Positions 46,993 through 53,632 of a DNA stretch of 64,000 bases are shown here, in pieces; position 1 is the stretch's first letter, and each line of letters opens with the position of its first letter. Below the pieces are notes generated by a model. It ran no database searches. It saw only the letters and a program-made list of their open reading frames with translations, and was not told where the DNA came from. Position numbers and translations under genes: made by a program. The DNA comes from Candidatus Fermentimicrarchaeum limneticum (GTDB lineage Archaea > Micrarchaeota > Micrarchaeia > Burarchaeales > Fermentimicrarchaeaceae): NCBI GenBank assembly GCA_013426015.1, contig CP058998.1, positions 248,001-312,000 on the forward strand, given 5' to 3'.

Positions 46993-48801
46993 ATGGAGAC
47001 CCTACAACGCGAGCCCGAGGAAGGAGTGGACTTCCTAGTGAGCAACGGCCGTGGGATGTTCCTACTCATCCCAGCAAAACAGTGCAGAAATGAGAGACAG
47101 AGGGAGAAGGAGGTCCAGAATCCCTCCAAGTGGCACGGCCTTTTCATCGGAAGCAACAAAGTACTTGAGGGATGGAATTCGCAGCTGGGGTCGGTCGTCC
47201 TCTCTCCTGACAACCAGCTTTCCTTTGAAACAGACCTGACCAGCGTCGTGAGGAGATTTGAGGTGGACGGAGCAGAGGTTGTCGAGCAGGTGTTCATCCC
47301 AAACGACTCCTTCTCAATGAGCATAAAGTACACGACACCCAAGCCTCTTATTATTCAGCCGGAGTTTGACATACGTTTCAAATACTCCGAGAGGGGCGGG
47401 CCGTACGAGTCCTGCCTGATGGGGGAGGATTTGCTCGTGAGCGGCCCACTCTACGCGGTTGCCGGCGGCGGCAAGGCGCGCATGGAGGAGCAGTACAGAT
47501 ACAAATTCTACCCCGAGGACTGGAAGAGGAAGGATACGAGCGAGAGATGGGTTTACGCTCCTGCAAAGTTCGAAACAAAGCAGCTATTCCTTGGCTTCGG
47601 CGAGAGCAAGGAGGAGGCGATATCCAACTTCGCGAAGATAAAGAACTACTACCTAGAGCTGAAGCTTGAGAAGGAGAGCGACATCGCCTCTCTTTTTGAG
47701 AGGCATAAGCTCGATTCAAACAACAATGAGCTGAGCCTTGCCTACAAGCTGGCCGTGCACCAGTTCCTGAAAATTCAGTATGGCAATTTCCTGCCGGCAT
47801 CTGGTGACAGGTGGTTTGCCGGTGATGAGGGATGGGCGAGGGACACTGCAGTTGCGCTTGAGGCGTTATTCGAATTGGGGCTTTTCAACACGGCAAAGAA
47901 GATTCTTGATTACTGGATTGACGCGGGGAAGCAGAGGGGTGACGGCAGGCTGCCGAGCAGGATGCAGCCTCTTTCGTACAACTCAAGCGACTCCACGCTG
48001 TGGCTGTTGAGGAGGCTCGCGGAGTATGTCGAGCTGACAGGCGACATGGAGTTCTTCAACCTCAAGAAAAAGGTGGTCAGGAACGCCTTCGAAGGGCTTC
48101 AGAAAGAATACCTAAGCATTGACGGCTTTGTGAGGAGCAACGTGTTCGAATCCTGGATGGACACCCAGTTCACACCGCGAGAGGGCTTCCCAGTAGAGAT
48201 ACAGGCGCTCTTCATCAAAAACTGCGTGCTGTATGCAAATCTTTTTCAGGGCGACTTCTCGGCAAGGCTGGCGAACCTGGGAAGGCATGCGATGAGTTCC
48301 TTCGGCAAGTTCAAGGTGAAGCACGTCATTGCCGGAGTTGAGAAGTCCTTCATGCTTGCGGATTCAATCAACTTCAACGGGGTGAGGGTTAACAAGCTTA
48401 CCCCCAACCAGCTTGTGGCGGTGGACTGCGGGATTCTCGAGAATGATCTGGAGAGGAGCATACTGGAGATTGTCAGGGAGCATCTTGCAGGAATCGGCAT
48501 ACGTTCCCTCTCCCCCGAGGAGGTGGACTACTTCGACGAATACACTGGAGACCAGAGCTACCACCGGGGGACCCAGTGGCCTTGGCTGAACTATCTTGCC
48601 GTGAAGGCAGAGGTGCGAAATGGAAATAAAGAAGTTGCATACAAGAAATATGTGGAGTCTCTTATGAAGGTCATCCTCACCAGAAACTGGGGCGGGGTAA
48701 GCGAGATTTATTCTGGAAACAGTAAATCATGCATCTGCCCGCACTACCAGACGTGGAGCCTCGCTTCTTTCATAATCGCCGCGAAGCATATCAGCAGATG
48801 A
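46993..48801 (+). CDS. Glycogen-debranching-type amylo-alpha-1,6-glucosidase (GH133-like)
   Basis: The 602-residue protein has an N-terminal beta-sandwich domain (about 1-230, with VDFLVSNGRGMFLL and HGLFIGSN resembling the GDE N-terminal domain). A C-terminal (alpha/alpha)6 barrel follows, with FAGDEGWARDTAVALEALF, GRLPSRM, WMDTQFTPREGFPVEIQAL and YHRGTQWPWLNY, the conserved active-site segments of the GDE C-terminal family. It removes alpha-1,6 branches of glycogen or similar polymers. A TATA-like GTTTTAAAC at about 46960 fits ATG 46993; a second AT box lies closer. The start codon is inside a TTTGTATGG sequence like that at the AAA+ and glutaredoxin genes. Confidence 0.88.
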   Translation: METLQREPEEGVDFLVSNGRGMFLLIPAKQCRNERQREKEVQNPSKWHGLFIGSNKVLEGWNSQLGSVVLSPDNQLSFETDLTSVVRRFEVDGAEVVEQVFIPNDSFSMSIKYTTPKPLIIQPEFDIRFKYSERGGPYESCLMGEDLLVSGPLYAVAGGGKARMEEQYRYKFYPEDWKRKDTSERWVYAPAKFETKQLFLGFGESKEEAISNFAKIKNYYLELKLEKESDIASLFERHKLDSNNNELSLAYKLAVHQFLKIQYGNFLPASGDRWFAGDEGWARDTAVALEALFELGLFNTAKKILDYWIDAGKQRGDGRLPSRMQPLSYNSSDSTLWLLRRLAEYVELTGDMEFFNLKKKVVRNAFEGLQKEYLSIDGFVRSNVFESWMDTQFTPREGFPVEIQALFIKNCVLYANLFQGDFSARLANLGRHAMSSFGKFKVKHVIAGVEKSFMLADSINFNGVRVNKLTPNQLVAVDCGILENDLERSILEIVREHLAGIGIRSLSPEEVDYFDEYTGDQSYHRGTQWPWLNYLAVKAEVRNGNKEVAYKKYVESLMKVILTRNWGGVSEIYSGNSKSCICPHYQTWSLASFIIAAKHISR

Positions 48802-48808
48802 ATTTCAT

Positions 48809-48913
48809 GCCGGGGTGGCGGAATCTGGCAACGCGCCAGACTCGAAATCTGGTTGCCCTTCCGGGCAGTATGGGTTCAAACCGAAAGGTTGCCCAAAAAT
48901 CCCATCCCCGGCG
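48809..48913 (+). tRNA. tRNA-Ser (CGA) with a 19-nt insertion in the T-loop
   Basis: Acceptor GCCGGGG pairs with CCCCGGC (48906-48912), with discriminator G. The D-stem is GCG/CGC. The anticodon stem is CCAGA/TCTGG with loop CTCGAAA, anticodon CGA. The long type II variable arm has stem GCCC/GGGC. The T-stem ATGGG (48870-48874) pairs with CCCAT (48901-48905), but the loop between is 26 bases instead of 7. Removing 19 bases, for example AACCGAAAGGTTGCCCAAA (48879-48897), restores TTCAAAT. In the precursor TGGG can pair with CCCA (892-895) leaving an AAA bulge at the 3' site, a relaxed bulge-helix motif. It is followed by a T-run. Confidence 0.9.
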
Positions 48914-53544: not shown

Positions 53545-53632
53545 AGCCCCAGGAGGGATGTGTCCGGCTTCTTTGGACCCCCGACCTACTGTTTACGAAA
53601 CAGTCGCTCTAACCAGGCTGAGCTACTGGGGC
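53545..53632 (-). tRNA. tRNA-Thr (CGT) with a 13-nt intron in the T-loop
   Basis: On the minus strand the acceptor GCCCCAG pairs with CTGGGGC, with discriminator T. The D-stem is GCTC/GAGC. The anticodon stem is ACTGT/ACAGT with loop TTCGTAA (anticodon CGT). The variable loop is AGGTC. T-stem GGGGG pairs with CCCTC, but the loop between (53558-53577) is 20 bases. The precursor forms a helix GTCC/GGAC with a 3-base bulge ACA on the 3' side and a loop on the 5' side. Cutting two bases after each helix strand removes the 13-nt AGAAGCCGGACAC (53560-53572) and leaves the 7-nt T-loop TCCAAAT. Confidence 0.9.

Follow-up and report, generated by a model that had tools for sequence, protein, structure and literature searches.

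A predicted 19-nt T-loop intron in the tRNA-Ser(CGA) gene of Candidatus Fermentimicrarchaeum limneticum, probably one copy of a small mobile intron family

Introns in the T-loop of tRNAs are known from Thermoproteales, where they occur at positions 56/57 and 59/60, as in the tRNA-Pro(UGG) of Pyrobaculum islandicum (56/57) (PMC4090602). The canonical splice geometry is comprised of a 4-bp helix and 3-nt bulges (PMC4090602), and relaxed HBh'-type motifs, as well as 56/57 introns, have been described (PMC4090602, PMC6379350). It was also reported that tRNA introns transpose in Thermoproteales (Fujishima 2010, as cited in PMC4033280 and PMC4090602). On the enzyme side, the epsilon2 endonuclease of ARMAN-2 (Micrarchaeum acidiphilum) is broad in specificity (PMC12397907, PMC6379350), cutting BHB and relaxed BHL substrates alike and needing its catalytic triad and ASL residues for cutting (PMC12397907). 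The cleavage assays consulted had pre-tRNA-Ile and pre-tRNA-Cys as substrates, with no T-loop intron among them (PMC12397907, PMC6379350).

The tRNA-Ser(CGA) gene considered here lies in a stretch of 64,000 nt (the window, G000:C1:248001-312000) of a 1.2-Mb archaeal genome, and its T-loop carries a 19-nt insertion. This insertion resembles the T-loop introns of Thermoproteales in position, shortness (11-129 nt range), BHB/hBH/HBh' motif and, by prediction, removal by the archaeal endonuclease (PMC4090602). It differs from them in sequence and in its host: theirs are crenarchaeotes, which have an (alpha-beta)2 enzyme, and here it is a micrarchaeote whose enzyme is of the epsilon2 type. As in the transposition known from Thermoproteales, near-identical introns are found in non-orthologous tRNAs of one genome, whereas the phylum is another one and a single build (GGGU:GCCY, UCR, AAA) recurs here in nine isoacceptors. 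Very probably, the insertion is a protein-spliced archaeal tRNA intron at 56/57 of tRNA-Ser(CGA), with an HBh'-like motif, and is one copy of a small mobile family.

The gene has the acceptor stem GCCGGGG/CCCCGGC followed by G, the anticodon loop CTCGAAA, a long variable arm and the T-stem ATGGG/CCCAT, which encloses a T-loop of 26 nt, TTCAAACCGAAAGGTTGCCCAAAAAT. Its Rfam tRNA match, obtained in a search of its own genome, spans G000:C1:296809-296867. Removal of 19 nt from the loop leaves TTCAAAT and restores a canonical tRNA; registers shifted by 1 to 3 nt within the A-run yield the same product, which gives four registers. The initial annotation had proposed both the insertion and the restored loop, and both proposals hold: the cloverleaf parse places the insertion, and orthologs without an intron carry exactly the predicted spliced sequence. 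On that strand, a GDE_C gene (glycogen-debranching-like) has its stop 7 bp before the 5' end of the tRNA gene (window 48801-48809), and a Pfam scan of the neighbours detected no splicing gene nearby. A group I intron was considered and rejected, as the insertion is just 19 nt against a catalytic core (P3-P8) of >200 nt, and no Rfam group I match was found in the window. The features are listed in Table 1.

Table 1. Features of the two T-loop-interrupted tRNA genes of the window (positions counted from its first nucleotide)
Feature	Position	Strand	Basis or remark
tRNA-Ser(CGA) gene, class II, T-loop interrupted	48809..48913	+	cloverleaf parse, Rfam tRNA match, conservation in genus
Anticodon CGA of tRNA-Ser	48843..48845	+	cloverleaf parse
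T-stem 5' strand ATGGG (positions 49-53) of tRNA-Ser	48870..48874	+	
Central helix 5' strand GGGT (G51 G52 G53 U54)	48872..48875	+	minimum pair probability 0.94
5' bulge TCA, predicted cut TC/A at 48877/48878	48876..48878	+	
Predicted 19-nt intron AAACCGAAAGGTTGCCCAA of tRNA-Ser between 56 and 57	48878..48896	+	register from BHB geometry; empty-site orthologs
Inner hairpin AACC-GAAA-GGTT of tRNA-Ser intron	48879..48890	+	
Central helix 3' strand GCCC, within tRNA-Ser intron	48891..48894	+	minimum pair probability 0.94
3' bulge AAA, predicted cut AA/A at 48896/48897	48895..48897	+	
T-stem 3' strand CCCAT of tRNA-Ser	48901..48905	+	T-stem unpaired in the predicted precursor
tRNA-Thr(CGT) gene, the other tRNA with a T-loop insertion	53545..53632	-	Rfam/cloverleaf parse
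Predicted T-loop intron of tRNA-Thr, 13 nt, AGAAGCCGGACAC; register 58/59 fits best	53560..53572	-	helix GTCC:GGAC, bulges AAA and ACA

In the unconstrained RNAfold minimum free energy (MFE) structure of the Ser precursor, UGGGU pairs with GCCCA (GGGU:GCCC plus one U-A pair) and is followed by a 3-nt UCA bulge and the AACC-GAAA-GGUU hairpin. The central helix GGGU:GCCC, of 4 bp with one U.G pair, joins the 5' exon (its T-stem strand) to the intron. The initial annotation was right in seeing a BHB-type motif with an AAA bulge on the 3' side, and the inner hairpin that it described is returned by RNAfold unprompted (helix h', AACC:GGUU, pair probability 0.71-0.91). Its register, in which TGGG:CCCA leaves a 4x1 internal loop, was discarded for GGGU:GCCC with a 3-nt bulge; because U54 pairs with G, the larger 5' internal loop vanishes and the UCA bulge has no unpaired base opposite. 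In a canonical BHB the cut falls after the second base of each bulge, and cutting at these points restores the 7-nt loop in Ser. The outer exon-exon helix h amounts to 1 bp only in the 56/57 register, and thus the motif is relaxed and HBh'-like rather than a strict hBHBh'.

Across the genus (five genomes), the central helix of the Ser and Leu precursors has a probability of 0.74-0.95, with the exception of one Leu precursor (G003, 0.56). The inner hairpin survives both an A-to-G change in G002, which leaves a wobble pair, and a change within the loop in the Leu intron of G003. When the Ser intron was shuffled, an equally good motif (helix and inner stem) arose in 211 of 200,000 trials (0.1%). 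Since the intron takes up the 5' strand of the T-stem, the T-stem is absent from the predicted Ser precursor. In the Ser precursor, and even in the mature form, RNAfold gets some of the pairing in the D and anticodon arms wrong, so the absolute folding of this GC-rich tRNA is unreliable, and a protein or a modification may change the competition between T-stem and intron.

The sole tRNA_int_endo gene found in the genome encodes 386 aa and aligns over its full length with the epsilon2 enzyme of ARMAN-2 (phmmer 1.5e-142, 4fz2/9w2k), with the catalytic triad (Y235/H250/K281) and the ASL residues (Y159/K160) all in place. By its sequence, it is an epsilon2 (ARMAN-type) endonuclease, i.e., a single three-unit protein with a Tyr-His-Lys triad and an ASL Lys, and it probably can cut out the Ser intron. 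We infer that the gene is transcribed and that its precursor is cut and ligated as follows. Briefly, G51-U54 of the T-stem and T-loop would pair with the intron GCCC to yield the 4-bp central helix, which would be flanked by the AAA bulge and by the UCA bulge closed by the inner hairpin, the outer helix being absent. The endonuclease would cut after the second base of each bulge, a ligase would join the exons to UUCAAAU, and only then would the T-stem form.

The geometry was also assessed across the class: in 42 distinct T-loop-interrupted arms, all registers that leave a loop of 7 nt were tested for a strict 4-bp helix. A perfect helix is present in 35 of the 42, whereas shuffling the introns gave 6.9 +- 2.3 (at most 13 over 300 rounds), and loop lengths other than 7 nt give fewer arms with a perfect helix. 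After removal of similar introns (clustering at 70-80% identity, 55% being too lax), 24 of 31 arms retain the helix, against a null of 5.4 +- 2.1. Three registers occur among the arms, namely 59/60 (UUCA:UGAA; Ala), 58/59 (GUCC:GGAC; Thr) and 56/57 (GGGU:GCCC; Ser, Leu).

The T-loop of tRNA-Thr(CGT) is 20 nt long, of which 13 nt are insertion, and its MFE structure contains GUCC:GGAC with a 3-nt ACA bulge. This helix reads TCC..GGA in the window's genome and G002 and TTC..GAA in G003 and G004, both sides having changed, while the ortholog of G001, of the same genus, reads TCCAAAT, with the T-loop intron absent and an anticodon-loop intron present. The tRNA-Ala of the genome has a canonical 59/60 intron (UUCA:UGAA) with the T-stem as outer helix. 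It had been claimed that Ser and Thr are interrupted at the same place; this is not supported, as the best registers differ (56/57 for Ser and Leu, probably 58/59 for Thr, 59/60 for Ala), with some ambiguity left by the A-run.

The 19-nt intron is present in tRNA-Ser(CGA) and tRNA-Leu(GAG) of all five genomes of the genus, and empty sites are found outside it. Two other genomes (G012 and G015) have GTGGG-TTCAAAT-CCCAT in tRNA-Leu(GAG), where the genus has GTGGG-TTCAA(19 nt)AT-CCCAT. Likewise, the tRNA-Ser(CGA) of G103 (L059) reads ATGGG-TTCAAAT-CCCAT, and TTCAAAT is seen in tRNA-Ser(CGA) of other class genomes. Within the window's family, the T-loop of tRNA-Ser(CGA) holds the 56/57 intron in one genus, whereas that of G006 holds an intron that is unrelated and of the 59/60 type, and that of G007 holds none; judged by these orthologs, T-loop intron turnover is fast. 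A search of 84,980 species with the intron matched only the genus and one unrelated Flavobacterium stretch outside any recognisable tRNA. The matches among named genomes are the MAGs Sv174 and Sv368 and two Lac Pavin MAGs, all Candidatus Micrarchaeota, and viral contigs gave no intron match.

Relatives of the intron were sought in 301 class genomes with a pattern made of its 3' end and the T-stem, with CCC required after the intron. The pattern matched 27 places in 15 genomes (reversed control, 0), of which 22 are T-loop introns with GGGU:GCCY and UCR and AAA bulges; the T-stem sequence common to these 22 is partly ascertainment, as the pattern demanded CCC. They are distributed over five families and nine isoacceptors, with anticodons read by eye: Ser-CGA, Ser-GGA, Ser-GCT, Leu-GAG, Leu-TAG, Leu-TAA, Leu-CAG, Ala-CGC and Thr-CGT. 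The Ser and Leu introns of the window's genome are 100% identical, with 5' exons at 69%; the Ala and Ser introns of G026 are 95% identical versus 55% for the exons, and the Ser and Leu introns of G008 91% versus 57%. Near-identical introns in non-orthologous tRNAs of one genome, the mark of a transposed intron, thus occur in these three genomes, and in G002 the same A-to-G change is found in both the Ser and the Leu intron. Such introns in differing tRNAs fit movement or conversion between tRNA genes. We infer mobility from these comparisons, which fit reverse splicing and recombination equally well: the Ser intron looks like a member of a family able to move from one tRNA gene to another. Further members would be the identical copy carried by tRNA-Leu(GAG) and, elsewhere in the class, introns of other tRNAs that share its ends.

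With about even confidence, a wider proposal can be made, that Micrarchaeia carry their own mobile family of 56/57 T-loop introns, unreported as far as could be searched, which inserts only at GGG T-stems and borrows that strand, so that the T-arm could not fold until splicing. The 19-nt copies of the genus would then be the minimal form of longer introns that contain, in other families, a repeated element of ~50 nt. A literature search found no paper on T-loop introns of Micrarchaeota, a weak negative given its limited coverage.

Some other observations were made on the introns of related genomes. A ~50-nt repeat, AGC-U(4-6)CUUUC / GAAAG-A(4-6)CC-UY-GG-A(4-6)GAAAG, has 24 matches (L215-L238; reversed control, 0) in G008, G013, G020, G030, G052, G062, G093, G098, G119, G121 and G166, and none in the window's genome. 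It is located in T-loop, D-loop and anticodon introns, inside an apparent 23S rRNA (L223), directly 3' of tRNAs (L216, L217, L226, L227, L232) and directly after the apparent end of a splicing endonuclease ORF (L231). In ~20 of the 24 copies, three runs co-vary in length (6/6/6, 5/5/5, 4/4/4), one of pyrimidines, one complementary to it and a mirror-image one of purines, as if three strands were coupled. Rfam searches of the long introns of relatives gave chance matches only, apart from tRNA. In addition, tRNA-Ser(CGA) and tRNA-Leu(GAG) of G011, from a different family of the order, share an unrelated 52-nt T-loop intron at 59/60 (L054, L087; 88% identical), and a search of G011 with this intron returned the Ser/Leu pair only, with no expanded family.

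With regard to other explanations, a real intron might be cut in register 57/58 to 59/60 with the T-stem kept, as in tRNA-Ala. All four registers give UUCAAAU, and introns at 59/60 that pair UUCA:UGAA and use the T-stem as outer helix occur commonly in the class, the genome's tRNA-Ala included. However, neither Ser nor Leu offers a 4-bp central helix in registers 57/58-59/60, the T-stem has a probability of <=0.003 in the Ser and Leu precursors of the five genomes and costs 3.0-6.6 kcal/mol when forced, and the 22 related introns repeat the GGGU:GCCY helix with its UCR and AAA bulges, so this reading is unlikely.

Far less probable still is that the insertion stays in mature tRNA-Ser as an expanded T-loop, given that orthologs of related genera have the standard 7-nt loop and that the BHB geometry is conserved at the 7-nt register; a T-loop of 26 nt would also cost the T-loop/D-loop elbow. 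A decayed pseudogene that took up an insertion is as improbable as a retained loop. Annotation tools do miss the gene (ARAGORN reported no tRNA in the window, tRNA-Ser included), but it is the sole Ser(CGA) gene detected in the genome, all its stems are intact, and it is 98-99% identical in the four other genomes of the genus, where the flanks are 59-80% identical. A spliced 56/57 intron accounts for the gene best.

The Rfam tRNA covariance model marks 44 places in the genome, or 45 counting tRNA-Val(GAC), which it missed. T-loop insertions are found in only four of these ~45 tRNAs, Ala-TGC (23 nt), Thr-CGT (13 nt), Ser-CGA (19 nt) and Leu-GAG (19 nt), and the remaining ones, all read, have 7-nt T-loops. 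The suggestion that many tRNAs of this organism carry T-loop introns is therefore not upheld; the absence from the other tRNAs counts against that generalisation and leaves the Ser intron itself untouched. Genes for tRNA-Pro(GGG) and tRNA-Arg(CCG) were not found among the genome's tRNAs, so the count of four could rise slightly. Counting all positions, introns interrupt about half of the tRNAs, several of them at 29/30. Introns in the anticodon stem (about 29/30 or 30/31) were seen in Arg-TCG, Val-TAC and Val-GAC, the last of which has a normal T-loop; the two Val introns resemble each other, and tRNA-Asn appears to hold two introns (L023, L030, L031, L242). The long intron of tRNA-Trp (L034, G000:C1:769626-769792) looks as if it contains a box C/D RNA, an arrangement found in other archaea. 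A tRNA-like place (L037, G000:C1:1044451-1044537) has a good T-arm and no matching 5' acceptor strand, and may be a pseudogene, a fragment or a multiply interrupted gene. Outside the window, three identical 401-bp stretches near G000:C1 342639, 368628 and 394617, spaced by exactly 25,989 bp, each contain a 25-nt copy of the 3' end of tRNA-Val; contig C2 is 25,511 bp, and the stretches may reflect an integrated element present in tandem or an artefact of the assembly.

The position, the relaxed motif and the spread of introns are already known from Thermoproteales, and relaxed cutting is known for epsilon2 enzymes; a new intron family behind the Ser intron is plausible. T-loop introns explain why standard tools miss tRNAs in such genomes. 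Intron-bearing and intron-free orthologs form a natural series for dating intron gain and loss, tRNA-Thr differing even within one genus. Finally, these introns would supply the ARMAN-type endonuclease with defined substrates in the T-loop, where splice motif and T-stem are predicted to compete.
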